From: Bombyx mori
Taxonomy: Eukaryota > Arthropoda > Insecta > Lepidoptera > Bombycidae
DNA: 64,000 bases
Assembly: GCF_030269925.1 (NCBI RefSeq)
Contig: NC_085126.1
Location: forward strand, 1,490,501 to 1,554,500
Direction of reading: 5' to 3'
Notes under the pieces: model-generated
The model's database searches: none
Seen by the model: only the letters and a program-made list of their open reading frames with translations
Told to the model about the DNA's origin: nothing
Part shown: positions 11,181 through 59,531 of the stretch, one piece after another
Numbering within the stretch: position 1 is the stretch's first letter
Layout: the number at the start of each line of letters is the position of its first letter
Position numbers and translations under genes: made by a program

Positions 11181-11385
11181 AAGTGGACGACTAAGGTGTT
11201 ATTTATCTTATTCCACAAATTTGAAAGCGTCGGTCCAACGTTTTGATTGGTCCTTGGGTTAAACGATTCATTCATAGATCCTTCAGCACCCTCGTGTGTC
11301 CACAAGTTTTGGCAAGAATTATGAATACTTCTTTCTTAATGTTTAATTCTTTTTTTCATTGCAAGGATGCAAGGATGAAGTATTT

Positions 11386-11631
11386 TACTGGTGGTAGGAC
11401 CTCTTGTGAGTCCGCGCGGGTGGGTACCACCACCCTGCCTATTTCTGCCGTGAAGTAGTAATGCATTTCGGTTTGAAGGGTGGGGCAGCCGTTGTTACTA
11501 TACTGAGACCTTAGAACTTATATCTCAAGGTGGGTGGCGCATTTACGTTGTGGATGTCTATGGGCTCCAGTAACCACTTAACACCATGTGGGCTGTGAGC
11601 TCGTCCACCCATCTAAGCAATAAAAAAAAAA
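11386..11631 (+). mobile_element. Bm1 SINE
   Basis: Complete body just downstream of the gene A stop codon on the opposite strand. Confidence 0.88.
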
Positions 11632-11863: not shown

Positions 11864-12109
11864 TTAGATATTATAATGTCTTCTCTTATCTTTCTTAATG
11901 AAGAGCAACGGAATGGCTTCGATGGGCATACCCTTAGTCTCCGGCAAGTAAAATTGACAAAAGACCGCTCCAAGGAATCCGAAGAAACTGAAGAGGTAGA
12001 AGAGAGGAGCCAGGCCGACCCAATCGACGAGTTGTGAGAATAATTGAAGCGTCACAAAATTCATGAGCCAAGTACAGGCGTTGATCAAACAATTGCACAG
12101 ACCTCGGAC
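11864..12109 (-). CDS. Gene A exon 8 (helices 11-12, stop)
   Basis: Begins VRGLCN after a 'cccacag' acceptor, contains PETKG and ends KKDKRRHYNI then TAA. An ATTAAA lies about 20 bp downstream as a possible polyadenylation signal. Confidence 0.9.
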   Translation of the reverse strand, partial: VRGLCNCLINACTWLMNFVTLQLFSQLVDWVGLAPLFYLFSFFGFLGAVFCQFYLPETKGMPIEAIPLLFIKKDKRRHYNI

Positions 12110-33900: not shown

Positions 33901-36900
33901 ACAACGTAAATGCGCCACCCACCTTGAGATGTAAGTTCTAAGGTCTCAGTGTAGTCACAACGGCTGACCCACCCTTCAAACCGAAACGCATTACTGCTTC
34001 ACGGCCGAAATAGGCCGGACGGTAGTACCTACCCATGCGGACTAACAAAAGGTCCTACCACCAATAATTACGCAAATTAGAATTTTGGGGGTTTGATTTT
34101 TATTAGGTACATGATGATTATTCTTTCACCGTGGAAGTCAGTCGTAAGTACGTATTTCTTTAGAAAAATTGGTACCCGCCTGCGGGATTCGAACACTTTT
34201 GCATCGCTTGATACGAATGCACCGGACGTCTTATCCTTAATGAAAATAAAAACTATAATAATATACAAGCAATAAATACACAAAACACAAATATATCTAG
34301 CTCAAGTATATTTTTAATGCCAGCTACATGTGAAGAAATTTATAAAACAATTCATTCTCTCAATAATACTAAATGAACAGGTTATGATGAACTGCCCACC
34401 TTTATACTAAAACAATGTGCAATAGCCATTACACCTGTACTCTGTCATATTATCAATCTTTCATTAACTGAAGGTACATTTCCTGATAAATTGAAAATCT
34501 CAATAGTGAAACCTATATACAAAAAAGGACATAAGGAATGCATCAATAACTACCGACCGATTACTTTAATACCTATACTTGCAAAAATATTCGAAAAAAT
34601 CATGCATTCTAGACTCACAACTTTTCTTAATAAATCTGAAGTTATAAAATCTGAACAACACGGTTTTCAAAAAGGCAAATCTACTACAAGTACGTACGTA
34701 GTAAAATTAATCGATTCTCATATGCACTTTGGCGACTTACAAAAATATGTAATTTAAAAACTGCATTACAGGCCTATCATGGATATGTCGCCTCAAATAT
34801 CAGATACTGTATACCCCTCTGGGGAAATTCTAGTCACATAAATAGAGTGTTCATTGCACAAAAGCAATGTGTTCGTGCCATGTGCAATATTCATCCTCTG
34901 ACTTCTTGTAAACCATTCTTCCAAAAACATAATATTTTAACTGTACCATCCATATATATACAAGAATGTTGTTTGTTTGTTAAAAAGCACCCACAATTAT
35001 ATAAATCGTGTGGCGAGTACTGTCAATTTAATACAAGATACCCTACTAAACTAATGTTACCAAGTATAAATACTCGTTACTACCATACAAACTGTTATCC
35101 TATGAGTATCAGAATATTTAATAAGATACCAAACAGCATAAGAGATCTTCCACTAACTCAATTTAAAAGAAAATTATATTTATGGCTAATAGACAAGACT
35201 TATTATAGTGTGCAAGAATTTTTAAATGATAAGTGTTGTACATAATAAAATATTAGAATAAGAAGTGATAGAATGTAAAAATAGATAGATTTAGTAAATT
35301 TTGTGTTATAATTAATATAAAAATAAATTAAATTTTCGCATGCCTAAACAGGCGAAATATATGAAGCTATGTCCTATATCTTGTAAACTATATTTCTGGC
35401 GAATAAAGATTTTCTTTCTTTCTTTCTTTCTTTCTTTCTTTCACGACGACTTCAAATTTAGTGTGTTATACATAACTGGGTACTGTTGCTCCAACGTTAA
35501 TATCATTCGTGAGCATACGTTACCTTTATATTTAATAATAAGTAAACCAATCGCCCCGGGCATCAAGTCAGGCAACAAGCGGTGTATTTCACATTTATAT
35601 GGTACGATTTTCGCAATGAAACTAGAGATTTGGAATTAAAATTGTTAACTATATATACTATGTAACTATACTGAGATCTCAGAACTTATATCTCAAGGTG
35701 AGTGGCGCATTTACGTTGTAGATGTCCATGGGCTCCAGTAACCACTTAACACCAGGTGGGCTGTGAGCCCGGCCAACCATATAAGCAATAAAAAAAAAAA
35801 TAATAATAAAAAAATAACTCTTACTCAAAAATTTCCAAGACGATGTCGGTTTCTGTTCAACTTGTTGCTCTTCATGTTTCGCTAAATCTTTTGCTTCTTC
35901 TGAATGTAAATAAAATAATATATATATTAGTATGTATGTAAAGTTCCAACAAGGCAAACTCTACAATCCATTAGTTCGGCAACATTTCCTCCTTCTTCAA
36001 ACGAGGCTTGTGGAGAGTATTAAGCGGTAGGCAGCGGCTTGGTTCTGCCCCTGGCATTGCTGAAGTCCATGGGCGACGGTAACCACTCACCATCAGGTGG
36101 GCCGTATGCTCGTCTGCCTACAAAGGCAATAAAAAAAAAAAATTCTGTCATACAAATTTCAATCAAAAATTTAGAATGAAAATCTCACCCAGCGAATTCC
36201 CGTGGAAATATTTGTGATAGAAAACAATGCTTTTCACAAATGTTACTCACCAGTATCTACAGGTAGATAAGTTTTCTCGGAACTAGGATTAATCTGCAAT
36301 CTGATTTTGTCAATTTCAAATGCTATGTCCTTTGAACCGATTTTCAATCTTTTATAGAACGCTATAGATTTTTCCGCTTCCTGCCAACATACAGTATAAC
36401 CATTTAGTTATTATACGACTCTCTTATTTATATTGGCATAACCAAGGCATATCGTCTATAATCTCAGTGGTGCGCAATTTTTCGACTATGACCCCTTCAT
36501 TAGAGAGATCTTTCTTATTACGAGCTGCTAAATCGACCGAAATATTAAAAAAAAATGCGACCCTAACAACCTTCTGGCGGCCTCCATAGGGGTCGAGGCC
36601 CCTAGTTTGAGCACCACTGGTCTGTCTTGAAATTTGTTTTGGGGCGTTGGAAAGCATCATACTGTATCTGACGCAAAGTCACTTTCTATTTAAGATCTTG
36701 AACATACGTTAAGTTCATTTTGTCATGTAAGCTTGTATCTTTGAGCCCACAGACGTCCACTGCTGGAGGTAGGTCTCTTGCAAGCTTTTTCGCAACGACC
36801 AGTCCAGCATTCCTAGCATCCAAACCAATAAAAAACATATTTAAAGAAAAAAAGGGTGCGTATACTTAAGTACGCGCGTAAGAAGTTATACTTTATTTTT

Positions 36901-39038
36901 ATTAAATTTATTTCTCTTTTATTTATTTAAATTTTAATCAATTTGAAAAAAAATCGATTAAACAACATCCTCAAACACGCATATTGGACATCCCTTTTCT
37001 TGATATCGTATAAATTCGGTAATTCTGGGTACGGTTCGGAAAGTTCACCTGCGGCTATATTCAGACTCGCCAAGTTACGTCGGTCGCGTTGTAATGAGCG
37101 ATTTAGTGGGCAACTTCATTCTGTTAATTTTGTGTCACGGTGTGCGCGCATCGTAAAATTTCACTCTCATCAATTTTTCATAACGCGCCTAAAGAAGTAT
37201 AACTTCAAAAAGACAAAAAACTCACTTCTTCCCTGCCTTTCATTACCAGGAACACAGGACTCTCGCGGAGTAAGGTCAACAACAGCATCGTCATTACTGA
37301 GAACCCCAAATGCGTATAAACAACCTGTTGATACGTCAGTTTTCCTCCCAAGATGTATGACGTCAAAAGCCCTATGATATACCCCGATGATGAGAATGCC
37401 GTGAGACCACCTCGGATTGAATCATGAGCGATTTCTGACACGTAAATTATTGCAACGTTTTGCCCCGCAACGCCCACACCCGCGATCGACATGGCCACAA
37501 GTACTAGGATCACATTATCCGTAAGAGATATTATTGTCCATGTGATCTGAAATAAAACAACGAGAAATATATGTAAAATCTCGTTTCTGTTTTTGTTTGT
37601 TCGCGTGATCAGGTTTTACTACGTAAAATGATAGTCTTGTTTTAGTGGTAGTAGGACGTCTTGTGAGTCCGCACGGGTAAGTGCCACCACCTCGCCTCTT
37701 TCTGTCGTGATGCAGTAATGCGTTTCGATTCGAATGGTGGGGCAGCCGTTGGGACGAATAATATAGGTCTTATATGTGACCACACGCATCATGGGTGTTA
37801 TACAATACAACTGACATTTATTTTGACCTCATATCTTAAGATATTTAATGAAAAATTTGGACACAAATTTAGATATAATTTTTGGATATCAAGTGATTAT
37901 CGGGACCCATAGGCAACATACCATTGCTACCGTCATCCAGCTTGAGACAAGAGCTCTCAATTCTGTACAATTACACCTGCCCCACCTTTCAAGCCAGAAC
38001 GCAGGCATTCAAGACACTTTCCCGCTATCTAAGTTTAATATAATAACATTACAACAAAGTATAATAGTATTACTTCTAATCAGCTTACAACAAAGCCAGG
38101 TAATTGCTGTTTGTTTGCAGTGATTTACTTATCAGACAGCGAGGTACTTGTGGATTAATGTAACCACACGCACGAAATACGTCAATTTGTTTTTTGGTTA
38201 TTTTTAAAACATTCGAGTTGATAGTAATATAAATAGAAGTACTAATAAAATAATTATGATGTGAGCTATATTGCTATACTGTTGCTATACAAATTCAGTT
38301 TTTTTTCAAATTCTGCCTGTGGGGCTAGCGACAAAGAGACGATTTTCCACTGAGCGAATAAAAGTACCAATCGAGGGTCCCTATTTAGAACTTGTATAAC
38401 TGCCAAACTTTCTCAAAAAGCTCCTGAGATTCAGACTTCGGTTAAATATCTTGTGTTCTGGGATAGGCGGACGCTACATGCCACTAGGGAGTCATTAGTT
38501 TTTCGAGTTTAAGAATTAAGCAGTTGTTCTTATACCGATTTTACAAAGACGGTATTGCCTTTTTTGATATTTGATATTCAGTGCTATTACAGAACTGGTG
38601 TGAGTGATATTTTAGGTTTTAAAAGCCCAAACATAGCAGAATTTTAGAAAAAGTTCACGATGTTCAAGATCGGGAAGTATTTTCCTAGTAATTTAAACTC
38701 ATAGCTAAAACCTTTTTTCGGATAAATATTGAAATCAGAGGTAAAAACCAGAAATTGCGACACCAAATGTGCACTGGTATTGCAATCAAAATAATAACAA
38801 AAACTTACCACGTAAGGTAGACCGAAGAATATCGTAGCGTATTTTCTTCCTAAAATGTTGAAGGCGAGTCCACAGAAGGGACTAGCCAACAGTGCTCCGA
38901 AGTTAGGCAAGCTGCCCAGTAGTGATATCTCCCACGCAGACATCGGCCTGTCCAAAAGTGTTGAATTGGACTCGAAGTTTGAGGTCGTGTAAGACGGCCA
39001 TGCGCATATATAACCGGTTTGACATGCCAATAACGAAA
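30711..39038 (-). CDS. MFS sugar/trehalose-transporter-like protein, gene B (7 certain exons)
   Basis: Tandem paralogue of gene A. Certain exons on the minus strand: 38809-39038, 37226-37546, 36251-36380, 35825-35899, 33514-33731, 31565-31747, 30711-30935. Five of these match gene A exon lengths exactly (230, 321, 75, 218 and 183 nt), and all junctions are GT-AG with consistent phase. They give about 460 codons including stop. Family marks are FNILGRK, SEIAHDSIRG, RESPVF, DKFGRK, PEVRSLCN and PETKG. As in gene A, helix 7 lacks QQLSGIN and reads MGCVVLQVYAEPLF. The 5' end is unclear: the best first exon, 39188-39263, has a TGA in frame. The gene may be functional with another first exon, or damaged. 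Confidence 0.85.
31009..31090 (+). mobile_element. Diverged Bm1 head
   Basis: 'cccaaaggttaagacgcctgg' to 'ggtgttcaaatcctgcagcc' matches the tRNA-like head only. Confidence 0.5.
31095..31262 (+). mobile_element. One-ended relative of the 1-348 element
   Basis: 'ttttaaccgacttcaaaaat' then 'gggtgaatcgaatttgatga' parallels the left half of 1-348. Confidence 0.6.
31310..31535 (+). mobile_element. LINE 3' end (same unnamed family)
   Basis: 'catgcccgctgagtttctag' to 'acgttcaacaagtatgtact', next to gene B exon 7. Confidence 0.6.
31565..31747 (-). CDS. Gene B exon 7
   Basis: 183 nt from PLLIVTAA to SAELFLPE. It is phase 0 and homologous to gene A exon 7. Confidence 0.85.
32369..32724 (+). mobile_element. 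RTE-like LINE 3' fragment
   Basis: Same C-terminal frame (LRWYGHVMRRNENE, GRGRPKKKW) ending ADPR, with 'gatgatgatgag' after it. The 5' junction has a 25-bp direct repetition of 'gaatggatagaatacggaat'. Confidence 0.8.
33178..33378 (+). mobile_element. Short Jockey-like LINE 3' end
   Basis: 'acccacagacacagcccact' to 'ctatcagcataggtaggg'. Confidence 0.7.
33514..33731 (-). CDS. Gene B exon 6
   Basis: 218 nt with LQVYAEPLF and DKFGRK, and a GTAAGG donor. Confidence 0.88.
33838..34242 (-). mobile_element. Bm1 SINE, near full length
   Basis: Complete from tail to head ('accggacgtcttatcctta'), in gene B intron 5. Confidence 0.88.
34300..35445 (+). mobile_element. LINE with the reverse-transcriptase core deleted
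   Basis: The first part (34345-34757) reads PVLCHIINLSLTEGTFPDKL, SIVKPIYKKG and NNYRPITLIP, the opening blocks of a CR1/Jockey-group reverse transcriptase. The second part (from about 34757 to 35245) is the C-terminal region (RYCIPLWGNSSHINRVFIAQ to YLWLIDKTYY). The catalytic FADD box between them is gone. The 3' end is a TTTC microsatellite. Confidence 0.8.
35408..35443. repeat. (TTTC)n microsatellite at a LINE tail
   Basis: Several perfect TTTC units follow 'gaataaagatttt'. Confidence 0.9.
35655..35797 (+). mobile_element. Bm1 SINE 3' fragment
   Basis: 'taactatactgagatctcag' to 'ataagcaataaaaaa', ending shortly before gene B exon 5. Confidence 0.85.
35825..35899 (-). CDS. Gene B exon 5
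   Basis: 75 nt of hydrophilic loop ending SSWKFL, phase 1 at both ends. Confidence 0.82.
35990..36141 (+). mobile_element. BMC1-like LINE 3' end, short
   Basis: Same sequence as the copy at 17650, in a gene B intron. Confidence 0.75.
36251..36380 (-). CDS. Gene B exon 4
   Basis: 130 nt starting EAEKSIAFYK, one codon longer than in gene A, with a GTGAGT donor. Confidence 0.82.
36461..36631. mobile_element. hAT-like MITE
   Basis: Starts 'cagtggtgcgcaattttt' and ends 'agtttgagcaccactg', inverted ends of the hAT type. The flanking 8-bp duplication is not clear, so it is old. Confidence 0.6.
36738..36812 (-). mobile_element. Short RTE-like 3' remnant
   Basis: 'cagacgtccactgctggagg' is the complement of the usual end of the same LINE group. 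It is too short to classify further. Confidence 0.4.
36852..37208 (+). mobile_element. MITE next to gene B exon 3
   Basis: Same ends and core as the copy at 12146-12524, in the opposite orientation, ending about a dozen bases from the exon 3 donor. Confidence 0.75.
37226..37546 (-). CDS. Gene B exon 3
   Basis: 321 nt from ITWTIISL to MKGREE. Its GTGAGT donor lies only about a dozen bases from the end of a MITE. Confidence 0.9.
37644..37755 (+). mobile_element. Bm1 SINE middle fragment
   Basis: 'ggtagtaggacgtcttgtga' to 'ggtggggcagccgttgg'. Confidence 0.75.
37756..38808 (-). other. Gene B intron 2 remainder
   Basis: Intronic sequence between exons 2 and 3 with no further repeat recognised. 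Confidence 0.55.
38809..39038 (-). CDS. Gene B exon 2
   Basis: 230 nt encoding LLACQTGYICAWPSY and NILGRK, with acceptor 'ttttcag' and donor GTAAGT. Confidence 0.88.
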
Positions 39039-39763: not shown

Positions 39764-40169
39764 TGTCGTGGTTAACAACTTTTAGTAATATTAAGAAGTT
39801 GTTTTGACTATTATTTTAAATGATGAAATGTTGTTTTGATAAATGTCACAAAATGTAGGGTAGACTCCGTGGCGCCACAGTATAAAATGGCGGTACGTGG
39901 ACAGAGTCGTGGCATTCCGTGTCAGACAGTCATTCGGTCCGTATCAGACGGTCCGTCCGTCTCAGTGAGTCTCTGACAGTCAGTCAGTCTGTCTGTCGGT
40001 ATGTGCAACGAAACTGTCGGTTTATCCTGTCATTGTGAAAGTTGTGTGTGTTGAGTTTCAATAATTATTATTCAAAAGGTTTTATTGACTTTTTATAAAC
40101 TGAGTTCAACCAAATACGAGTGATGACGGAAACTACCGCTCAGCCATCCCTGGCGCGCTGCCGCCGACA
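39764..40169 (+). repeat. 5' LTR of element 1
   Basis: 406 bp containing 'agtataaaatgg' (TATA box, about 39881) and a tract of cagtcagt-type repeats downstream, consistent with an LTR promoter on the plus strand. Confidence 0.88.
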
Positions 40170-40710
40170 TCAGAAGTGGGATCAAGACTCTACTCTCACT
40201 GGCGTGACGTGTTTGAACGTGTTCGAAGTACAGCGAAAAGACATGATGCAGATCAGAAATCAGAATACCAGTAACGGTATGTGAGATCACGGGTCGGAAA
40301 TTCATCGGGAACAGACAGATTCCGATCCATGTGCTTGGTGCGATACGGTTGATATGTACCTCGATGAACGTCTACTGGATGGTGCATAGCTCATTGTAGT
40401 CTTCAGTGGGGCCCTGAAAGGCGGTGCCTTATCATGTCGCGGATTTCACAACGATGGTAAGCCACAAAAGCGTGAATGCAGCATACGCAAGTCGTGTAAT
40501 AACGTCTGCTACCTCGATGGAAGATCTGAGCCACGAAGAAATCGTCACATCTTACGTTCTGGCTCATGTTGCCCAGTTGTCTCTCGACTTATCACATGGC
40601 ATTTACTAGCGGAAATACGACACGTAGCAAAAGTGCAAGTCTCAAGTGAAACTTCGATCGCAATAATGGATCTGTCATGACGAGTGGGTAGTTCCGACAC
40701 GAATCGGATC

Positions 40711-41508
40711 TGAAGTCGTCGTGACCTGTAAGATAAGACGTCCGGTGCGTTCGTGTCTGGCGATGCGGCGGTGTTCGTGTTCCGCTGGCGGATGCAAGTT
40801 TTTCTGGTGAAGTGCGTGCTTGTGCGTGCTTGACAAGTGTTTGCGGTTGGCTTCCGCAGTGTGGGAGTAACATCGTGTAGGAGAGGTGGAACCCGCAAAA
40901 TTGTAGTTTGCGTGGTGGCTGGTAAGATTTGCGGTGGTAAAAAGTTTGCGTGGTGGTAAAATGTATTGTGAGTCTGCACAGGTAGCCGGAGGTGAGTCTT
41001 CCGCGGTCGCGGTCTACCCAGTCCGCGAGAACCGGGCAGATCGCCTCGACGGTACGGAGGCCGGCCGACGGGTCCGCCAAACGACGAGACCACGCCTCCA
41101 GCTCGGACTGCCGAGATTGGAGCCCCCGCGCTCCGGCTATACTTACGTTAGGGCGCGCCACCTCGTAGGAGACTGTGAGGTATCCTTGAATGACTCTGAC
41201 TGCGATCGCGCGCTGCCGGCGTCGCAGCGCGGCGACTTTCTCGTGGGTAAGGACGTGGCACCAGACGGGTGCTCCGTATAGTGCCATCGACCGCACGAGT
41301 ACCATCACCCTGTCTATTTCTGCCGTGAAGCAGTGTGTATTTCGGTTTGAATGGTGGGGCAGCGGTTGTAGCTATGCTAAGACCTTGGAACTTGTATCTC
41401 GGGATGGATGACGCGTTTGCGTTGTGGATGTCAGTGGGGTCCAATAACTACATGGCACCGGGTGGGTTGTGAGCTCGTTCATAGTCCACCCATCTAAGCA
41501 AAAACATT
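40711..41508 (+). mobile_element. A-to-G-rich Bm1-like SINE inside LTR element 1, split by a LINE fragment
   Basis: The tRNA-like head (from 'gaagtcgtcgtgacc') and the body with its 'catctaagcaa' end can be aligned with other Bm1 copies in the window. It is interrupted at about 40985-41300 by a piece of R1/TRAS-like LINE. Most differences from other copies are A to G on the plus strand. Confidence 0.75.
40985..41305 (-). mobile_element. R1/TRAS-type LINE ORF2 C-terminal fragment
   Basis: The minus-strand frame reads ALYGAPVWCH, LRRRQRAIAVRVIQGY and LEAWSRRLADPS, typical of the region after the reverse transcriptase in R1-clade LINEs. Only a fragment is present. Confidence 0.65.
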
Positions 41509-41723
41509 GCTACGAGTTGCCGCCGAGGCAAATTGATGGCGCGACGTCATCGACGGCCGCGAGCAACGCAGCAGCGGAGCGACGCCGTGACGTGCCGGTA
41601 GCTGCGTAACATCGGGTATTTTGGTAAATGAGAAAAATCTGGTGAGTCGTTTTATTTTTATTTGGAATCTGGTGCCGAATGTTCTCTTGTGGAGAAATCT
41701 ATATGCAATGGTTCGCATAAAGG

Positions 41724-42503
41724 GACTGTTGATTAGAGTCACAGGGATGACTGTTGATTAGAGTCACAGGGATGACTGTCGATTAGAGTCACAGGGATGA
41801 CTGTCGATTAGAGTCACAGGGATGACTGTCGATTAGAGTCACAGGGATGACTGTCGATTAGAGTCACAGGGATGACTGTCGATTAGAGTCACAGGGATGA
41901 CTGTCGATTAGAGTCACAGGGATGACTGTCGATTAGAGTCACAGGGATGACTGTCGATTAGAGTCACAGGGATGACTGTCGATTAGAGTCACAGGGATGA
42001 CTGTCGATTAGAGTCACAGGGATGACTGTCGATTAGAGTCACAGGGATGACTGTCGATTAGAGTCACAGGGATGACTGTCGATTAGAGTCACAGGGATGA
42101 CTGTCGATTAGAGTCACAGGGATGACTGTCGATTAGAGTCACAGGGATGACTGTCGATTAGAGTCACAGGGATGACTGTCGATTAGAGTCACAGGGATGA
42201 CTGTCGATTAGAGTCACAGGGATGACTGTCGATTAGAGTCACAGGGATGACTGTCGATTAGAGTCACAGGGATGACTGTCGATTAGAGTCACAGGGATGA
42301 CTGTCGATTAGAGTCACAGGGATGACTGTCGATTAGAGTCACAGGGATGACTGTCGATTAGAGTCACAGGGATGACTGTCGATTAGAGTCACAGGGATGA
42401 CTGTCGATTAGAGTCACAGGGATGACTGTCGATTAGAGTCACAGGGATGACTGTCGATTAGAGTCACAGGGATGACTGTCGATTAGAGTCACAGGGATGA
42501 CTA
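41724..42503. repeat. 25-bp minisatellite, about 31 copies
   Basis: Tandem unit 'gattagagtcacagggatga' plus 'ctgtc'. The first copies have 'ctgtt'; the rest look almost perfectly uniform, indicating recent array expansion. Confidence 0.97.
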
Positions 42504-42600
42504 TCATTGAACACTTGTAGTCACAGGGATGAATATCATTGAACACTTGTAGTCACAGGGATGACTATCATTGAACACTTGTAGTCACAGGAATGACTTA
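42504..42600. repeat. 32-bp variant tandem repeat, three copies
   Basis: Unit 'tatcattgaacacttg' plus 'tagtcacagggatgac'. It shares 'agtcacagggatgac' with the 25-bp array and directly continues it. Confidence 0.9.
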
Positions 42601-42847
42601 GTTACTGTGTACATGAATTGTACGGGGAGAACTTGCAGCAGTAGTAAATCACTTATTTTCGTTTGTGTAATCTTTCGATGTCGTTATAGAATTTGTGTTT
42701 AGAATAAAAATTATTTGATGACTTTTAAATTTTCCGATAAGTCGTAAAGTGTAGTCAGGAGTGATCGAGCGGAACAAGTGTTCTCGTGGATGTTTTTGAT
42801 TGTAGGTTAACCATCACACGAGGACGTGTGACGTGTCAGAATGGCCG

Positions 42848-43253
42848 TGTCGTGGTTAACAACTTTTAGTAATATTAAGAAGTTGTTTTGACTATTATTT
42901 TAAATGATGAAATGTTGTTTTGATAAATGTCACAAAATGTAGGGTAGACTCCGTGGCGCCACAGTATAAAATGGCGGTACGTGGACAGAGTCGTGGCATT
43001 CCGTGTCAGACAGTCATTCGGTCCGTATCAGACGGTCCGTCCGTCTCAGTGAGTCTCTGACAGTCAGTCAGTCTGTCTGTCGGTATGTGCAACGAAACTG
43101 TCGGTTTATCCTGTCATTGTGAAAGTTGTGTGTGTTGAGTTTCAATAATTATTATTCAAAAGGTTTTATTGACTTTTTATAAACTGAGTTCAACCAAATA
43201 CGAGTGATGACGGAAACTACCGCTCAGCCATCCCTGGCGCGCTGCCGCCGACA
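42848..43253 (+). repeat. 3' LTR of element 1
   Basis: Same length and apparently same sequence as the 5' LTR. It is preceded by 'cagaatggccg', almost the same motif that precedes the 3' LTR of element 2. Confidence 0.88.
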
Positions 43254-44592
43254 TATATATATTTTTTTAATACTTCATTAAGATATCGGACGCTACTCGT
43301 TGCTAACGCTCGCACTGGCCTATAACACGTATATCCTTTCGTATGGCAGCGTCCCGGTCCGGTCAGCTATATTATCTGGCGGCCGCCATAATGGAAAAAA
43401 AGCCTTGTCTGGCAGAGGTCTATCTTCCCCCTTAATTCTAGAAGATACTTTTTAGAAAAAACTGTAATTAAACTGCTTTATTGTTCAAAACCAGTGCATT
43501 ATGCTATAGGTTTAGAATCACAAAGGACCAAGCTATTATATTTTATACTAATAATAACTGCAAAGGTGTGAAAATAGTAAATTAATTTAAGTCAAATATG
43601 CAGATTTAGATTTTGTTCCAATTTTAGGTGTAAATACTGACAGAAATATTTAATAAAACAACTAAGCGATCATATTTGTATTTAATTTGCTTTGACAAAC
43701 ACTATTTCAAAACATAATCCTAAGAATTACACATCATTCTATACAAAAAAATATCAGTAGAACGTTTACAAAAAATCGGCCGCAGTGGTAGATCTTGCGC
43801 CGGATGTTGAAAATAGCTCATGTTACAAGCTTAGTTCTGAGAAATATATTGATCAAGTGAGATTGAAATGTATGTTTATATTGATGTTTGATTCATAATC
43901 TCAATTGTGTTAAATATTTACGTCTGAAATATGTAAGATTATAAAGATATTAAGATTCAAATAAAACCTGTGTAAACTAAGAAAAAATAGGTATATTCAA
44001 ACAATGATCTGTACTGTAGTATTCAATTATTTTTATGAGTTAATAATGTATTTCCTAAAACATGAATAAATTTGCAAAAGGCTTGTAAGATATAAAGATG
44101 GTGTTTTCATACAACATTTATTAGAAAATGATGAAATAAAACAACAATTATTTACTAAGATGGCACGCGAAAACGACTGTCTTAACGTGGATGCGACTTT
44201 TTACCCTCCGTCTGGCGAATGACCGGGTCCGGTCAGTTACTGTATTTATATTATTTCTGTTGTTTCAGAATATTATTTACTTGTTCTTAGAAAAAAAAAT
44301 GTATAAAAAGTTTTTTTTTCAGATTATTAAATCAAAAATCAAATTCAAATTCTCTCTCTAAATCAAATTTACTCTTACAAAAAATGTACATACAATCAGA
44401 CAAAAAAATACTCTTAAGAACTTAAGACGAAAAATTTTAAGACAAAAAATCAGACACAAAATAAACTCTTGAAATATGTCAACAATGTTTTGATAGTCTT
44501 AAAAAAAGTTAACATGTAGGCTACTTACAATTGAGAAGAAATAATAATTAACATAGGTACATAAAATTATTTGGCCTTACCCTATTATTATA
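43254..44592. other. Region between LTR element 1 and the piggyBac-derived gene
   Basis: No gene is seen. On the minus strand it should contain the 3' untranslated part of the piggyBac-derived gene; AATAAA complements occur, for instance near 44117. 'ccggtccggtcag' occurs at about 43356 and 44228. Confidence 0.5.
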
Positions 44593-46340
44593 TTAATTGT
44601 GAAGTTTCACAAAACATGTGAATACGCACACAGGTTTGTCGCAACCTACGCAATACGTTACCGTGCGCTTGCCGCACACTTTACATGGGTGGCGATGGCG
44701 ATTTGTGCTGTTTAATGAAGTTAGCCGCGGATATTCGGCGGGGTGATGGCGGCTCACCTCGAAAATGGTATCTTGTACCCTGGCAGAAAAGACATATGGC
44801 TGCATTTTTATTGAATGCCTACGCAAAAGGGATTCTACCAGGTTTTTTCTAAAGCCCCTGTGGTCCAAGACCTCCGTGGCGGTCTGTTTATGTATGATAT
44901 AGGCATTCAACACAGAAACATTAAGTAACCTTTTAAACAATTTCTTGTACCAAATTTGTGTCCTCTTGCGTTCAATTGGGAATGCAGCCAACATCTGATC
45001 TTTTTTATCCACGCCACCCATGCAGATGTTGTAGTCACGTATCAAAATAAGTTTTGTTACTCCGTTTTTAGTGGAGACGGCATTGCCATGGTACGTTGAG
45101 ATCGTCGCTACGCGGTTCTGATCTCTCCATATTATGCAATCGACATCTCCACTGGTATAGCCTACTACTTGCCCGGGCTTCATCTGAGATTTTTTCAGAT
45201 TGGTCAGTTCCGTCGGGACATACTTGCGGTTTGTCCGCAACGTACCGACACAATCAAACCCAATCGATTTGAGTTTTCGGGCAAGTGCTGGGGAATTGTA
45301 GAAGTTATCCATCCACAACGTGTATCCTTTGTGTTCTAAACCTTTGATAAGGTTAAGAACCAACGCCGGTGTACTCGCTGTGAATGGATCAGCCTCTGAG
45401 ACTGTAGGCGAAGCCTTATGGGCATGGATTTTAAATCGCCATAAATACCCCGTCTGCGACTCACATATTTCGTAAGTTTTTATGCCCACTGCTGCAGCTT
45501 TGTTTGGAATAAATTGGTTGATGTTCAACCAACCTTTCCACTGCAGCAGCGATTCATCTAAAGCAATGTTCTGCTTCATTATATATAATTCCGTGAACTT
45601 GGAATTCAAATGGCTAATCACAGGCTCCACTTTAAAAAGCTTTGCCTGTGAGGGATCCAGGTTGAGGTTTCTCAAGTTCTCGGAATTATTAAAATGTAAG
45701 CACCTGCTGAGTAACTGGAACCTCCTAAGCGACATATATACTTTGAAACCTGGAGTGGAGAAGATGTTTTGTTCCGTATTCCAGTACTCTTCAACCCGGT
45801 TCTTTATGACGATTCCCATCGCCAGTAATATTCCGAAGAACACCAATAACTCGTCTACATTGGTTTCTTTCCATTCTGTAATCCTACTGGAGGCCTGTAA
45901 TTCCCCGCCGTCCAACATTTCAGCAGCTAATTGTTGGGCATATCTATTTGTTTCCTGCACAATAAATTCCATGAACTCCTGGTCCCAAATAAGTCTAAAA
46001 ATCTCGTAAGGGTCACTTACAGCAACAGTGGGACCAGAGTGTTCCTTAAAAGATTCACGCCTTTCTGTTGGCGGTATAGGAGAGTCAGGGAAAGTTCCCC
46101 AGTCAAATTCAAAAAAATGACTAGGCTTCATACCGGTATCACGCGCTGGTGATGTAGGTGCTGAAATGATGGAAGGCGCGGAAGATGTCACAAGAGGTTT
46201 AGTTGCCGCCGCCGTGTCAATCTCAATCTCCTCGTCGTCCGGAGTGTCCATCAGTATTCCAGCTGCCCGGGGGATAATCATGGGAACGATTTCGTCGTTA
46301 TCATTCTGGCTCTCATCATCGCTGTCATCGTCGTCACTTC
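44593..46340 (-). CDS. piggyBac-derived gene, exon 7 (catalytic domain and stop)
   Basis: 1748 nt. It opens with an acidic run (SDDDDSDDES), then carries the whole DDE_Tnp_1_7 catalytic region and the C-terminal cysteine-rich domain. An ATG at 46281 would allow a shorter 562-aa product. Confidence 0.93.
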
Positions 46341-48386
46341 CTAATTGAATATAATAGTACGGTTAGGTCTTGAGAAAAGTAAGCTTGTGCTTGTGATAAC
46401 AAAAAACTTTGCGTAAGATGTTATCAATAGCTAATTTGAAATCGCCCTATGCCCTATACTAATTATTTAGTAATTTAGTGCCAACATGCACATAAATTTA
46501 CATCGCAAATTTACATTTATTAAATTCTTACCATAGTGCAACAAGTAGCAAATTTCAGAGTCTCGTAGCGGTCGACGTAGCGATGAAATAGAATCTCTGT
46601 TCCTGTGTAGTACAATAGTATACATTTAGAATCAACACCTTCCTCTCCCATCATCTCATTCTTCTACATTGAAATATGAAAAATACCACTTACGTAGTAT
46701 CATGTTCTTGGTCTGGGCAAAGCGATCGACGCACACGTTTATGTGACGGCGAAGGACTACGGCTGCCATGTACAGAAATCTGTATATTATATCTAGAAGA
46801 TGGCGTGCTCGTACCACTGCCGCCACATTCAACGTACCTGAAACATCATAGGTTATAAGTATTATAAAATCAACTATCACGATATTAATAATAAATTATT
46901 ATGATAAAAAAATATACATTGCCGGTGATGGCGGAATCGCAGGTGAAGACAAAATTACTGGAATGTCCTCTCCGTCAGGTTCATAATTTCGGCTGAAAAT
47001 AATAATGTATTGTAATATTGACAGTTAGCTAAATGATGATGGTGATAAAGTTGGCAAATAAATCAAAAATAAATTGGGTGAGGATTGATACTTACGGGTT
47101 CCATGAACGCTTACTTCGCTCCGTCAATGCCTGCTCTATCGGTTCCCCAGCGGGCAAATCCTCAATTGCAATAAGGTTAAATCTGTAAATACAATCACAT
47201 TTATAAGACAATGAAGATCGCGTCATGGAGGAGAGGCTTTTCTAGCAGTGGATTCAGGCTAATTATGATGATGAAATAAATGCACATTTACTCATGAGAT
47301 GCAGTGTCACTACATAAATATAAAAAAACTGGCTAATAAATATAAAAAAACTAAAAAAAGTGCGAGTCGGCCTCGCACACGAAGGGTTCCGTACCATTAT
47401 TATTAATATCGAGCAAAAAGTAACAAAATATCACCTATGTTGTATGCGAGCCCCCCTTGATAATTATTTTATTTTGTTTTTAATATTGCAGCCACAGAAA
47501 TACATGATCTGTGAAAAATTCAACTCTCGAGCTATCACAGTTCTTGAGATACAGCCTAGTGACAGACAGACAGCGAAGTCTTAGTAATAGGGTCCCGTTT
47601 TTTTCCCTTTGGGTACGGAACCCTAACAAGTACTTAAAATTGAAGTTCCATTAAAAACAAAATACTAACGCGCAACTTGCCGACGGCCTCTGTTCAACAG
47701 AAGACCGCGGGCACCCCCTTCCTCTACCTCGTACCCTTCCTGTTCGTGAACCACCACGTGTGGGAAGACTCGAACGACCTCCGCGAGTGCGCACGCCTGT
47801 TGCTCTTGCACTGCCTCCCCTCACCCGCAAACTTCTCTCACTATTAAAATCCAATCAAAAGCGCAACATAAGCCACATGCAGTTAACAGGGTGCAGGAAA
47901 AAGACATTCAAATTAGTTTTAAATAAAGCGCAAGTGCAAAAGAATAAAGAAAGAAAGAAATAAAAAAAAAGTTTTTCAAAATGATTTGTCAAAGCAAACC
48001 AAACACCATATAAAAGTAGATCCAATAGTCTTATCCATATTATGATAGCGAGCGAACAAAATGGCCGCATTGCCCGAAATAACCTAACTGTCATCGTCCC
48101 GGTCCGGTCAGTGGAGGGACGCGTGTTATTTTATTCGATATTTCTCTAATTAATGAAAGATTTGAATAAATTTACAATTTGGAAAAGGTTAATAGTTAAG
48201 TAATTATTTCATTGTTTCCATAAATTACACAAATCTACCAATATTTGGTGCTAAATGAATGGTTTGTTTGGCCGACATGAGCGTGTGCTAAGCCTGAGTA
48301 GGTGTTAGATATCAATGTTTTACCACGAAAAGCGTGTCACAACACGTACAAAAACAAAGAAATATGCTTATTACATACCTTTCCAT
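44593..48386 (-). CDS. piggyBac-type transposase gene with seven exons (767 aa)
   Basis: Minus-strand exons: 48379-48386, 47670-47840, 47096-47182, 46918-46992, 46694-46837, 46532-46602, 44593-46340. All junctions are GT-AG, phases fit, and the sum is 2304 nt (767 aa plus stop). Residues about 4-60 are Arg/Gly-rich, residues 60-200 are Ser/acidic and probably disordered, and the transposase domain follows. Its three catalytic aspartates are all present: D447 (IALDESLLQW), D530 (LWMDNFYNSP) and D630 (MGGVDKKDQM). The C-terminus has a cysteine-rich zinc-binding domain (CKVCGK, CVGCDKPVC, CFVKLH). In piggyBac transposases these parts cut and paste DNA at TTAA. I see no TTAA-flanked inverted repeats around the gene. 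An exonised 5' end and an intact reading frame suggest either a domesticated host gene (PGBD-like) or an intron-bearing transposon. LTR element 2 begins about 370 bp upstream. Confidence 0.85.
46532..46602 (-). CDS. piggyBac-derived gene, exon 6
   Basis: 71 nt encoding NRDSISSLRRPLRDSE and ending LLHYG across the junction; GTAAGA donor. Confidence 0.7.
46694..46837 (-). CDS. piggyBac-derived gene, exon 5
   Basis: 144 nt encoding a Ser-rich basic stretch (GSRSPSPSHKRVRRSL); acceptor 'tttcag', donor GTAAGT. Confidence 0.72.
46918..46992 (-). CDS. piggyBac-derived gene, exon 4
   Basis: 75 nt encoding RNYEPDGEDIPVILSSPAI; acceptor 'tttcag', donor GTATAT. Confidence 0.7.
47096..47182 (-). CDS. 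piggyBac-derived gene, exon 3
   Basis: 87 nt encoding FNLIAIEDLPAGEPIEQAL; acceptor 'tttacag', donor GTAAGT. Confidence 0.72.
47355..47630. mobile_element. Repeat with 'gggttccgtacc' inverted ends in the piggyBac-derived gene intron
   Basis: 'cgaagggttccgtaccatta' at the left and 'tttgggtacggaaccctaa' at the right. It lies between exons 2 and 3 of the gene, a repeat common in moths. Confidence 0.65.
47670..47840 (-). CDS. piggyBac-derived gene, exon 2 (RG-rich)
   Basis: 171 nt encoding a run of Arg/Gly motifs (VRTRGGRSSLPTRGGSRTGR, then VRGRGRG). Acceptor 'taatag', donor GTTAGT. A stop lies just upstream in frame, so the start must come from exon 1. Confidence 0.68.
48379..48386 (-). CDS. 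piggyBac-derived gene, exon 1 coding part
   Basis: ATG GAA AG followed by a GTATGT donor. The split codon AG+T gives Ser, so the protein begins MESERSLRVRG. The 5' untranslated part extends to higher coordinates. Confidence 0.55.
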
Positions 48387-48758
48387 CGCTTTTTCAAAAC
48401 TTTATCTCGTTATACTGTCGTCAACCACTTAAAAACACTTGAAAATAGACGCACAAACACTTCCAACTACTCCGCGTTAGCAAGTCCGGAACAATGAGGT
48501 TTTTTTTTCTTAAAAACATATGTAAGTTTACTTAAGAAAGCGTCTATATTTTGTCTTTGTTTAACGTTCTAGCAGTTGTATGCGTTAGAACACTGCAGAA
48601 CGTGTTTTAAAGTGCGCTTTTCGAATGAAAACAGCGGCATCAAATTACTGACCGTTCCGGTCGCCTGCCAGCTAAGCGTTTATTTTATCGTGACCGGAGC
48701 GGGAGGCTGCCACCATGGCACATTTTTTCCGATGGCGTCTGCCATAGGAAGGGATATA

Positions 48759-49402
48759 TGGGCGCAAATGCCACTGTTGGCAATAATTAACTTAATAATA
48801 TATAGTTTAGTTTATTCTATGTTAATATTTATTTATTATTAGCAACAAAACTGTTATTCTACCATATTTAATTATTAGCAGACACTGTTTTGATGTGAAA
48901 ATGTTCAGAATATGTTTAATGTTTATATTATTGTTTAAAAACACAAATGACTATAAATGATTAAATATGAATAAAGCATAAATATTAATAATAATTTATA
49001 TTATAATTAACAGTATTAATAATTTAATTAAGTATTGTAATTGTTATGCAATGATGTTGTTGGCGCCATCTATTATTAGGCTGGATAATAACAATGTTAG
49101 TTAATATTAATTAAAAGTAATTAATGTAAAATAAATTAAATGTGAGTCATGTAAAATCACTAAAATATGTATTTTGAATATTAAGCTATGTTTTGTGAAT
49201 TGTTTCGCAGTAATTACATTTGTTTGTATAAAAGAAGTTGTAGTTGCTATAACCAACACAAAATGGCTAATTGTGTAAAAACCACTGAGTAACTCAGGCG
49301 TGGCTTTTTGTTGTAAACAAGTAATGTTAAAGTTTTATAGAATTGTATTGTATTTTCATTGTAAAAGAACTTATGTGTGTAAATCCTGGTGTAACGCCGA
49401 CA
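48759..49402 (+). repeat. 5' LTR of element 2
   Basis: 644 bp with 'gtataaaagaag' (possible TATA box) near 49228. The interior starts at 'tcagaagtgggatca' just after it. Confidence 0.88.
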
Positions 49403-50143
49403 TCAGAAGTGGGATCACAGCCCCAAAATTAATTGTAAGCCCCCGAATGAAGCAACCCACTGTTGAACAAGTGATGGGTATCTCAACCTGTAATAAAAAG
49501 GCGAAAAGTGATGTTATCTGCAAATGCTGTACCCTTTTGGTGGCATTATAACTTTTATTTGCCGCCGTTCAACTCCGATGAGGGCGTGACATCAAGACCG
49601 ATGCGGAAATGTGGACGAAACTATCACGAAGCTAATTGTTTTATCGCATGAACATCGAGTTCAAAAGAGCAAGCAAGACATAAGCATTAAGCCGATATCT
49701 GGTCTTTGTATTGAACCGCATTGGAGCAAGTGAGGGACGAACTGATCCATGTATTCAGTAAGGATGTGGATATTTAAAATGAGTTCTAGACCGTGGATGT
49801 TTTGGAAAAGCTACTGACGCTGAGATGGTAAAAATACTGATTTCAGGTATTTATCTTAAATTTACCTATTCGATCCAAGTTATTGAGAAATACGCAGTGG
49901 TATGTATTTCGCTTCCTAAATAATATCGATTCTAAAAACGTTCCGAAAGCGTCAAATTGAAAATACAGTTAATTTAATGTTAATAATCTAAACATAATTC
50001 AGTTTTATCAAAATCACATAATGATTCCCTCAGTCTTCGTGGCACTTTTAGTAACACTAAAGTTTTAAATGTGGTTACTGCGTCACTTGCGTCATTTCGA
50101 GAAAACTTGTTACCGCCGTCAAGATGACAAACGTATCACCACA

Positions 50144-50303
50144 AATAAGACTTAAATCATTGCAGATATAGTTTAGTAAGCTAAACAACTTCATGTAAAG
50201 TTTTTGAGCATAAGGGGTCAACTAATAAGACTTAAATCATTGCAGATCTAGTTTAGTAAGCTAAACAACTTCATGTAAAGTTTTTGAGCATAAGGGGTCA
50301 ACT
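50144..50303. repeat. 80-bp tandem duplication in LTR element 2
   Basis: Two adjacent copies starting 'aataagacttaaatcattg' differ by one visible base (gatata versus gatcta). Confidence 0.9.
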
Positions 50304-51526
50304 GATTTCAAAACAAAGCATTGTGACTTTTAATGGAGAAAAATACTAGAACTATTATAGAATTTCATATGGTAATCATAATCATATGGTAATACTGACA
50401 GTCTTGCTGACATCCTAATAGGTTTTAATCTTTTAAAAATAACTTCTCAGTGTTGCACTCTTTGAAGAGAACTTATCTATTTTTATAAGTTTCTATCCAG
50501 TGAACGCTCAAGTTTGGAGTCATTATTCAATCATCATGTAACTTTTGCAAATCATGTCTCATAGATGGTGATCAGGCAGATAAAAGTTGGATTTGAAATA
50601 ATTAATTTGGATAGGATAGTACAACGCTGTACATACTGTATGTCTCCTGTTTATTGTGAGGAGTTCAAGCATATTACAATAAAAATAAACTTGTAATAAA
50701 ATGTCATAATAAGAGACAGCTCATCCCTGTTCAGTAGCTCCATATTATTACTTTTCCTTTCATAATTATTTATTTTTGGATGAGTGGGTGATTAACTCTC
50801 TGCACCCTAGGTTTCTAGTGGGGATGCCACTTTAGTATTAGTCAAGAAAAAGGATTGCACAGATCTCTGTATTGATTTCTGCTTTAAAATTCTTAGTTAC
50901 ATTTTTGGAACCCTGTCACTTTTATAAAAATCACCAAGATAAAAGATAATTCAGAAGTTTCAAAAACTTGTGAACAGTATGAAATTCAGTACCACATTAT
51001 TGCAAAGAGAACGAGCATGGTCAACAGGCATGCTGAACTATTGATGGGTCATAAATGTCACATGTTTGTAAAATATAATTTAATAAGCTCTAACAGGCAG
51101 CTTTAAGATTTACAGTTGATTAAAAGCTACAGCACAAAAATAAAATAAAAATGCAGAGGCATTAGGAGGATGATGTTCCCTACCTGCCATTAAAATAAAG
51201 CAAATTGGAAATGGTCCGCTGAATGATGAATTAGGGGAAGTTGAATCAGCTGGTGAGAAATGGATGGACGAGCGGTCTGTACCATCCAATGTGTTTTGAT
51301 AAAGGTAAAGGTAAAGGTTTGGTAATGGTAAAGGTTTGATACAGGTAAATCTATCCTCTTAATGTCAGAGGATTCTGATAACTGAAAAATTGACCGTATG
51401 GGCAGAGAGATTAGTTCTGCTGTAAAATGATTGATAATTTGTTAAAGTGGCTACTTTTATTTTCCTATCCAATTATCCTTCCTAAAACGCTGGCGGGCCA
51501 CCATGCGAATCCTTAATCCTGGTCTT

Positions 51527-52070
51527 GTTGGCTAGATCCCGTATGGGTGATGCCTTATGAGTTGGCTAGATCTCGTATGGGTGATGCCTTGAGAGTTGGC
51601 TAGATCCCGTATGGGTGATGCCTTATGAGTTGGCTAGATCTCGTATGGGTGATGCCTTGAGAGTTGGCTAGATCCCGTATGGGTGATGCCTTATGAGTTG
51701 GCTAGATCCCGAATGGGTGATGCCTTATGAGTTGGCTAGATCCCGAATGGGTGATGCCTTATGAGTTGGCTAGATCCCGAATGGGTGATGCCTTGAGGGT
51801 TGGCTAGATCTCAAGTGGGTGATGCCTTGTGAGTTGGCTAGATCCCGTATGGGTGATGCCGAGTGTGTTGGCTAGATCCCGTAAGGGTGATGCCTGGTAA
51901 GTTGGCTAGATCCTGTGAGGGTGATGGCTTGCGAGTTAACTAGACCTGTATGAGTGATGCTTTGTGTGTTGGGTAAATCCCGTTGGGTGATTCTCTTGTG
52001 TGTTAGCTAGATCTCGTAAGGGTGAATGATGCCTTGTGTATTGGGTAGATCCCAGTAGGGGATATGCCTT
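51527..52070. repeat. 34-bp minisatellite, about 16 copies
   Basis: Unit 'gttggctagatcccgtatgg' plus 'gtgatgccttatga'. Copies are nearly uniform on the left and decay to the right. Confidence 0.95.
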
Positions 52071-52132
52071 GTTTACTGTTATGTGAAATGCTAAAACAGC
52101 GCAAGGGACGCGCTGGAATCAGTATGGCCGTA

Positions 52133-52776
52133 TGGGCGCAAATGCCACTGTTGGCAATAATTAACTTAATAATATATAGTTTAGTTTATTCTATGTTAAT
52201 ATTTATTTATTATTAGCAACAAAACTGTTATTCTACCATATTTAATTATTAGCAGACACTGTTTTGATGTGAAAATGTTCAGAATATGTTTAATGTTTAT
52301 ATTATTGTTTAAAAACACAAATGACTATAAATGATTAAATATGAATAAAGCATAAATATTAATAATAATTTATATTATAATTAACAGTATTAATAATTTA
52401 ATTAAGTATTGTAATTGTTATGCAATGATGTTGTTGGCGCCATCTATTATTAGGCTGGATAATAACAATGTTAGTTAATATTAATTAAAAGTAATTAATG
52501 TAAAATAAATTAAATGTGAGTCATGTAAAATCACTAAAATATGTATTTTGAATATTAAGCTATGTTTTGTGAATTGTTTCGCAGTAATTACATTTGTTTG
52601 TATAAAAGAAGTTGTAGTTGCTATAACCAACACAAAATGGCTAATTGTGTAAAAACCACTGAGTAACTCAGGCGTGGCTTTTTGTTGTAAACAAGTAATG
52701 TTAAAGTTTTATAGAATTGTATTGTATTTTCATTGTAAAAGAACTTATGTGTGTAAATCCTGGTGTAACGCCGACA
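52133..52776 (+). repeat. 3' LTR of element 2
   Basis: Second copy of the LTR, equal in length to the first. 'cagtatggccg' lies just upstream. Confidence 0.88.
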
Positions 52777-57142: not shown

Positions 57143-57246
57143 ATTCTTATCGTGTGTGCGTCGCATGCTAGAGCCACACAATATAATCATAATACATAGT
57201 TCTTAATCGCACACAACAACGTTGTTCATGAGGCGATACTTTTCTT

Positions 57247-57491
57247 ACTGGTGGTAGGACCTCTTGTGAGTCCGCACGGGTAGGTACCACCGCCTATTTC
57301 TGCCGTGAAGCAGTAATGCGTTTCGGTTTGAAGGGTGGGGCAGCTGTTGTAACTATACTGAGACCTTAGAACTTATATCTCAAGGTGGGTGGCGCATTTA
57401 CGTTGTAGATGTCTATGGACTCCAGTAACCACTTAAAACCAGGTGGGCTGTAAGATCGTCGTTGTCGATCGTTTATTTTTAAGCAATAAAA
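57247..57491 (+). mobile_element. Bm1 SINE
   Basis: 'actggtggtaggacctcttg' to 'aagcaataaaaaaaa', with a small insertion near the tail; it lies about 490 bp from the 3' end of the ZP gene. Confidence 0.85.
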
Positions 57492-57981: not shown

Positions 57982-59531
57982 TTATGTAAACTTCACGGTG
58001 CCTCTGGATCTCTGCCAGCAATACGAAACGAGGACACTGCTCATCAAAGATCCGAGGAGTACCAGCACTCCGCCCCACAAAGCAGCGGACTGCGTCATGC
58101 ATACTCCAGAAGGCTCTGGGAGGTCTTCAGCAAATACCACTCTAAAACCTTTGCTAATCGTCGTCATAGGCTCCACAGTTCTGTTTCCGACATGGATGAT
58201 ATCCCTCCTCTTTCTCCTCGGTTCGATGCTCCCAGGGTTAGGGCATACGTCGCAGTCAGTTTTGCACAACTCCACATCGCATTGGATAATTAGGTCCATT
58301 TCATCGGGGAACTTAAAAGCTTTGAAGAATGCGAACGCAATGATCGATGCCCCAGTATTTCCTGTTTCTCTAGTTTTCTGGAAGGCACCGAATAGCTTGG
58401 GTTTTAATATACAACCGTTGCTGTCAGTTAACGGTACCATTTGGCGGCTATCGGCGTCTCTGGCGATACATTCTTTAACTTGAATGTCGAATCCTGGGTC
58501 TCCGGTAACAGATACAACCAAAGTCATGGTCTCTCCGATCTTGATCAGGCCGTTTGCTTCAGGCGCGAAAGGTCCACGTCCGGTCTGGATGTCCAAACGT
58601 GCCATGGCTGTGTCTCCACTGAAATTGCTCGTGATCTGGTTCAGCATACCGACACTGAGCGATGAAACCAATTGCTTGGTCAAATTTCCTTCCCACAAAC
58701 ATCTGACTCTGCGGATGTGATCCCATACTTCTTGAATACCGGGTTCGTTTTGAAGTACTAGTACGTTTTCGAGGTAGGCTTGGCCTTCGTTTTGGAAGTC
58801 ACTGAAGAATCTTGTGCCACAAGTGTTTAGGCTTACAGTGAACGAGTATTTGATTTGGTTCGAATTCTCTCTGACGTAAACGCACTCAGGTTCGTTATAG
58901 TGATCCTGAGAATAGATGATGCCATTGTACGGCTTGTTGAATTCGACGTTGATTGTCATCATTTCCTTGCCACAGTCAACTGTAATAGCGTGAATGTGAG
59001 GAGGGTGGCGATCGTCATCATCATCCAGGGTGGGTAGTTGCGTTTGCGAGGATTCGCCAGAGCTGCTGCCACCGTTGTCGGAAACGAAAGCAGGAAGAGT
59101 GGTTTCAGGAACAGTGGGTTGGCTTGTCTGGAAAGTGGTTGGTTGACTAGGTTGATAAGAAGGTTGGGACGGCTGACTGGGTTGGTCGCTAGGTTGCGAA
59201 GGCTCGTAAGTCGGTTGACTAGGCTGGTAGGTAGGAACTGAAGGCGAACTTGGCTGATAGGAAGGTTGTGTCGGCTGGCTGGGCTGGTAGCTAGGTTGAG
59301 CAGGGCGGCTGGGTAAGTAAGTAGGTTGGATTGGAGGATAGGGTTGCTCCGGTTGATACGTGGTTTCAGGTTGGCTTGGTGGGTTTTGTGGAACTGTCGA
59401 TGATGGGCCCTCATTGTAGACAGGAGTGGGACGTGATCCTGCAGCTGGATATCCTGTCACAGGGGGTAAGTAAGATGGTGCTGGTTCAAAAGGTCTTGGC
59501 TTCTCAGGTCTTCCTCCGAAGTACTGACGAG
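57982..59531 (-). CDS. ZP-domain transmembrane protein, large 3' exon (5' exons missing)
   Basis: Single exon of about 516 codons ending at a stop at 57982; a 'cttgcag' acceptor precedes 59531. Numbering from the longest open frame (519 residues): a Pro/Gln/Ser-rich region with repeated YQPSQPT-like units spans about 15-155; a ZP domain with ten cysteines follows from VDCGKEMM (about 187) to CDVCPNP (about 436). A furin-type RRKRR lies at 442-446, a membrane helix at about 487-507, and a short basic tail follows. Insect proteins with this layout are secreted through cleavage and polymerise in the apical or cuticular matrix; that role is inferred. The signal peptide must lie in exons to the right. 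I cannot say which insect ZP family (such as dusky-like or trynity-like) it belongs to. Confidence 0.88.

Follow-up and report, generated by a model that had tools for sequence, protein, structure and literature searches.

Is the piggyBac transposase gene on the minus strand at 44593..48386 of a 64,000-nucleotide stretch of Bombyx mori contig NC_085126.1 (assembly GCF_030269925.1, positions 1,490,501 to 1,554,500; hereafter the window) a host gene domesticated from a transposon, or does it belong to a transposon that carries introns of its own? A sequence-only reading had left both options open, calling a transposon with introns unusual, and its case for domestication leaned on missing inverted repeats. 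Such repeats do exist, and the second option is favoured here: the locus is probably a structurally complete, intron-bearing copy of a piggyBac-like transposon. This reading is preferred because inverted repeats, each next to the same 4 bp, enclose the gene together with its introns and flanking sequence, and because they also enclose a repeated motif that, at up to two mismatches, has no match elsewhere in the window.

Inverted repeats, proposed target site and repeated motif

Terminal inverted repeats (TIRs) of the form CCYTTCSTATGGCAG bracket the gene, with 13 of 15 positions matching between the two ends, and each of them adjoins ATAT. The proposed element is thus delimited by the following features:

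43331..43334, left copy of the proposed target-site duplication, ATAT, a variant duplication on record for a moth piggyBac-like element
43335..43349, plus strand, left TIR CCTTTCGTATGGCAG, 13/15 with the right end
48739..48753, minus strand, right TIR CCCTTCCTATGGCAG, 13/15 with the left end
48754..48757, right copy of the proposed target-site duplication, ATAT
43335..48753, minus strand, proposed piggyBac-like transposon of 5419 bp, with the transposase on the minus strand

The region 43000-50500 has 252 inverted pairs; among the 25 listed, complementarity was highest for 43344-43365/48691-48712 (91%) and 43330-43349/48739-48758 (90%), both of which sit outside the gene on its two sides and in matching order. 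Within the outermost 400 bp of each side, the best 20-base inverted match was 18/20, a value reached by none of 200 shuffles. The earlier statement that no TTAA-flanked inverted repeats exist stands only in its literal sense: no TTAA-bounded inverted repeats were accepted among 54 TTAA pairs, both neighbouring long terminal repeat (LTR) retrotransposons being left out (best inner match, 8/16), while inverted repeats flanked by ATAT do enclose the gene, at 43330-43365 and 48691-48758. The flanks can also be paired as a longer inverted repeat with gaps, but this was dropped, its score being 52 vs. 58 for the best of 300 plain shuffles.

As for the target site, ATAT is the duplication at insertion sites 9 and 16 among the 21 sites of CsuPLE1 in Chilo suppressalis, for which the 5' side is tabulated (PMC4273485), and non-TTAA duplications other than ATAT are also on record in a survey of small animal genomes (PMC10813416). 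Since the published exceptions include ATAT, membership in the piggyBac-like transposons rests here on features other than TTAA. About 10% of the insertions of Pokey, a Daphnia piggyBac element, are at non-TTAA sites; its variant sites keep the central TA, as does the ATAT found here, although those listed are TTAT, ATAA and CTAA, without ATAT (PMC3849761). The right repeat starts with CCCTT and the left one with CCTTT, CCCTT being the most conserved TIR start across small animal genomes (PMC10813416).

Several points weigh against these ends. The repeat pattern, its length and its threshold were picked after the inverted repeats had been seen, and, in a 7.5-kb region with 252 inverted pairs, those relied on here are conspicuous by identity and not by length. 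The duplication differs from TTAA, and reading it as TATA, with the element beginning one base sooner, fits equally well; in the single copy examined, ATAT has a central TA and the shifted TATA does not. The inverted match also extends two bases (GT) outward, so that the boundary is not sharp, and the ends are defined from the single copy seen. When three mismatches were allowed, the TIR pattern had six matches in the window vs. 2.99 expected, and 8 of 100 shuffles reached six; the only full matches in the window were the two ends from which the pattern came.

A second repeated sequence, TCCCGGTCCGGTCAG, has four matches with at most two mismatches in the 64-kb window, all of them within the element (starting at 43352, 44222, 48097 and 48690). 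Shuffles gave 0.02 on average and none of 100 reached four, a figure that overstates the case, as the motif was picked after being seen. Its copies are as follows:

43352..43366, plus strand, subterminal TCCCGGTCCGGTCAG, exact
44222..44236, plus strand, TCCCGGTCCGGTCAG with 2 mismatches
48097..48111, plus strand, TCCCGGTCCGGTCAG, exact, within intron 1
48690..48704, minus strand, subterminal TCCCGGTCCGGTCAG with 2 mismatches
48648..48662, minus strand, possible degenerate copy of TCCCGGTCCGGTCAG with 4 mismatches

The fifth copy is doubtful because equally poor matches occur at four places outside the element; at three to four mismatches, one extra match is found inside (48648) and five outside. 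The repeats near both ends resemble a putative transposase-binding array.

These ends bear directly on the alternative of domestication, according to which a host gene derived from piggyBac would have been kept by selection with its old ends still recognisable, and would encode a chromatin- or DNA-binding protein, perhaps still active as a nuclease. We regard it as unlikely. A long-domesticated gene has no need of inverted repeats, matching 4-bp flanks or a repeated motif, all of which persist here; the loss of transposon ends that goes with a domesticated piggyBac gene was not seen here, although retained ends do not strictly exclude domestication. In its favour, no second copy appears among the matches listed in the self-comparison of the window.

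The transposase and its proposed upstream exons

The transposase itself leaves little doubt. The longest ATG-started frame of the last exon, on the minus strand at 46281..44593, is an open frame of 562 amino acids (aa), which matches Pfam PF13843 (DDE_Tnp_1_7, the piggyBac transposase domain) over 1-349/349 with an E of 4.7e-89, and aligns as a homologue with piggyBat (9c0f) over 387 and with T. ni piggyBac (6x67) over 437 chain residues. The catalytic aspartates of 6x67 align with D242, D325 and D425 of this frame (residues 447, 530 and 630 of the 767-aa gene model below), its fourth aspartate with D428, and a tryptophan of piggyBac with W444; in T. ni piggyBac the triad is numbered D268, D346 and D447, plus D450 (PMC4273485). 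The C-terminal tail holds six cysteines and three histidines in the pattern CxxC-x7-CxxC-x4-C-x3-C-x4-H with a histidine upstream, i.e. a complete Cys/His-rich domain. The claim of a 562-aa transposase with three catalytic aspartates and a Cys/His tail is borne out by the domain match, the 6x67 alignment and the tail pattern: judged from its sequence, the piggyBac-superfamily transposase frame is real and its catalytic residues are kept. A single-sequence AlphaFold2 model of the frame was unusable (mean pLDDT, the predicted local distance difference test, 32.5).

Two of these features could also be read as marks of domestication. The in-frame part of the last exon contains no stop codon, vs. 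an average of 33.6 in 1000 plain shuffles, none of which was stop-free; an unbroken frame is, however, also expected in a fairly young transposon, which it fits as well as it does a selected gene. The Cys/His spacing is similar, though not identical, to that of PiggyMac, whose arrangement is common to the human PGBD proteins but is also carried by active piggyBac-like transposases (PMC8086355). The PiggyMac domain did not bind DNA (PMC8086355), and DNA binding by the tail is for this reason not assumed here.

Upstream of this frame, a splice reading made with the end points and the length of the model known beforehand, but not its junctions, yielded a product of the same size as in the sequence-only reading: seven exons and 767 aa from an ATG at 48386 to the stop at 44593, stop-free, with GT-AG introns throughout, in phases 2, 2, 2, 2, 2 and 1. 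The model comprises:

48379..48386, minus strand, coding part of exon 1, 8 nt, with the ATG and a strong donor
47670..47840, minus strand, exon 2, 171 nt, phase 2, Arg/Gly-rich, weak acceptor and donor
47096..47182, minus strand, exon 3, 87 nt, phase 2, good acceptor and donor
46918..46992, minus strand, exon 4, 75 nt, phase 2, strong acceptor, weak donor
46694..46837, minus strand, exon 5, 144 nt, phase 2, good acceptor and donor
46532..46602, minus strand, exon 6, 71 nt, strong acceptor and donor
44593..46340, minus strand, exon 7 (terminal), with the entire transposase domain, DDD core and Cys/His tail
44117..44122, minus strand, first AATAAA past the stop codon on the coding strand, read from the sequence only

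For the N-terminal 205 residues of the 767-aa model, Pfam gave no match with an E of 1 or below. Though the model was reproduced, with the same 767 aa, GT-AG junctions and absence of stops, the weight that it carries is lower than first supposed, for chains of this kind are common by chance and the sites of exon 2 and the donor of exon 4 are weak. In an exon-chain test, the best open chain joining exon 7 was taken in each sequence at four pairs of splice-site cut-offs, a start codon not being required. Since each sequence was scored by its best chain, the test did not score the seven-exon model itself, two exons of which fail the cut-offs; the real stretch gave five exons, partly other than those of the model, at the loosest cut-off, and at the strictest it gave exons 3, 5 and 6. 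As the cut-offs tightened, 47, 39, 27 and 11 of 300 shuffles, and 42, 37, 20 and 12 of 106 other stretches of the window, equalled or beat the real chain. Open GT-AG exon chains are thus common by chance and a bare chain is not strong evidence. A gene-finder score was not used: the upstream chain reached 46.9, above the best of 200 shuffles (39.2) but below other stretches of the window, all eight listed of the 104 being higher (61.6-138.2, some of them in an open reading frame (ORF) with a zona-pellucida (ZP) domain), and the exons of its best chain were partly unlike those of the model.

Individual exons fared differently. The splice sites were ranked by site frequencies among the 139 GT and 120 AG of the stretch. 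The donors of exons 1, 3, 5 and 6 ranked 3, 9, 11 and 4 of 139, and the acceptors of exons 3, 4, 5, 6 and 7 ranked 11, 2, 3, 4 and 19 of 120; both sites of exon 2 are poor (acceptor 56/120, donor 34/139), as is the donor of exon 4 (51/139). The G+C content is 0.44-0.61 in exons 2-6 vs. 0.17-0.35 in the introns. No random placement among 5000 fitted as well; of 2045 circular shifts 4 did, all of them within 25 bases of the true place. This pattern is support for the exons and falls short of proof because open frames by themselves favour G+C. The model frame is the sole stop-free frame of exons 2, 3 and 4, and by codon score it is the best one for exons 1, 3 and 4; against the model, this score does not favour its frame in exons 2, 5 and 6, exon 6 being poor.

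Another alternative is a simpler gene, in which exon 7 would be the real transposase of a piggyBac-like transposon and no more than one or two introns would precede it, exons 1-4 or more being chance open stretches, an arrangement that we hold to be rather doubtful. It would account for the 11-47 of 300 shuffles, depending on the cut-off, with similar open chains, and for the weak sites of exons 2 and 4; two piggyBac surveys also describe single ORFs (PMC12732532, PMC10813416). In addition, exon 7 alone, from its first ATG, has 74 residues before the piggyBat match, and piggyBat itself has 85 there, which also tells against the longer model. On the other hand, exon 7 opens with an acidic stretch that is in frame but lacks an ATG from the preceding stop to 46281, and at least one upstream exon is therefore likely to be needed; the G+C contrast between exons 2-6 and the introns is a further point for the longer gene, with the reservation already made. 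We accordingly consider introns near exon 7 likely, whereas exons 1 and 2 are unproven.

Under the favoured reading of an intron-bearing transposon, the RNA would be spliced to encode a transposase whose long N-terminal part is probably disordered, first basic and Arg/Gly-rich, then acidic. This transposase would bind the element ends and the repeated motif and cut at the 4-bp target, the element being re-inserted by cut and paste; the present copy would have been inserted into a non-TTAA target, ATAT, and would afterwards have become bordered by two young LTR retrotransposons. A bolder proposal, which we consider quite unlikely, is that the element is still mobile with six introns of its own, and that splicing switches between transposase N-termini, exons 2-5 each being skippable in frame because all are divisible by three and all in phase 2. 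The P element, whose transposition is controlled by splicing, offers a likeness for such control.

Neighbouring insertions and the rest of the window

Both sides of the element are occupied by LTR retrotransposons:

39764..43253, LTR retrotransposon with identical LTRs of 406 nt (39764-40169 and 42848-43253)
48759..52776, LTR retrotransposon with identical LTRs of 644 bases (48759-49402 and 52133-52776), TATA duplicated

The right one starts one base past the right ATAT of the element, and the left one sits 77 bp beyond the left ATAT. Since their LTRs are identical, both would have arrived recently, and the right one is probably younger than the piggyBac-like element because bases of the latter's flank appear to be duplicated. 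An LTR end and the bases that follow it, 23 identical bases in all (CGCCGACATCAGAAGTGGGATCA), are common to the two retrotransposons, and both are at TATA, which suggests that they are related and have a TATA preference. Each holds a tandem array, of 25 bp x 31 (41724-42502) in the left one and 34 bp x 16 (51527-52072) in the right one. Concerning coding capacity, the only ORFs of at least 120 aa listed within 39764-43253 are a pair of frames that overlap at 40545-41308; of these, one was scanned and matched no Pfam family. The segment 3619-4163 is about 90% identical to most of the LTR of the 48759-52776 retrotransposon and is possibly a further, older copy or a solo LTR.

Within the element, intron 2 contains at 47383-47624 a 13-bp perfect inverted repeat, AGGGTTCCGTACC / GGTACGGAACCCT, its arms 216 nt apart. 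Possibly a nested insert is marked by this repeat, and the copy of the element would then not be brand new.

Elsewhere in the window, all on the minus strand, a 384-aa mariner-type transposase frame (Pfam HTH_48 and DDE_3) lies at 20510-21664, and a 519-aa frame at 57982-59541, in which cuticlin/zona-pellucida domains follow an N-terminal part rich in Pro, Gln and Ser. Sugar-transporter domain matches were found, likewise on the minus strand, at 11864-12262, 19798-20175 and 38644-39030, the last below the Pfam cut-off; these stretches probably represent exons of a transporter gene or of several, and the piggyBac-like element might be located within the 5' part of a gene of this kind or close to it. 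A SINE-like (short interspersed nuclear element) repeat of about 220-250 bp is abundant on both strands, with at least five copies (1059-1305, 11384-11629, 12526-12769, 33840-34067 and 57245-57460) and more in the self-comparison of the window.

Relation to known piggyBac elements and genes

Like the element described here, CsuPLE1.1 of Chilo suppressalis has a DDD transposase, a short TIR starting with CC, subterminal repeats and a 4-bp target-site duplication, but it is 2406 bp long with a single 505-aa ORF, vs. 5419 bp with proposed introns here (PMC4273485). Length alone is not new, as piggyBac elements of up to 9.51 kb are on record (PMC10813416). Pokey is the closer likeness as regards introns, for it is mobile and its transposase gene has an intron confirmed by reverse-transcription PCR; that intron is, however, a single one of 68-84 bp (PMC3849761). 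Among host genes, human PGBD1 and PGBD2 have several coding exons and a transposase part in one unbroken 3'-terminal exon, an arrangement shared by the Bombyx model that would speak for domestication, but the upstream exons of the latter lie within the element's inverted repeats (PMC3902484). PGBD5 has seven exons, as does the present model, with introns within the transposase domain, three of the four conserved aspartates lost and no TIRs (PMC3902484). Introns by themselves do not decide between transposon and domesticated gene, because they are known both in the mobile Pokey and in the domesticated PGBD1, PGBD2 and PGBD5.

The genes of piggyBat and T. ni piggyBac are single-exon. They encode transposases homologous to the one found here, with aligned catalytic aspartates; the present model has up to 205 more predicted N-terminal residues. 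No relatives were found in two scans of viral contigs, and no multi-intron, TIR-bounded piggyBac transposon was among the matches listed in a literature search, most subscription papers being outside its reach. With due caution, the element would represent a new variant only if the splicing is real; otherwise, it would be an ordinary new piggyBac-like member.

The locus also illustrates that a search limited to TTAA misses the ends of an element where the target is a variant site and a retrotransposon abuts the end. piggyBac elements serve as gene-transfer tools and have, as a rule, a single uninterrupted ORF. If the present reading is true, the presence of several introns between the TIRs of one element would mean that a piggyBac gene with introns is not necessarily domesticated, and such an element would provide a concrete test of splicing control over transposition in the piggyBac family.

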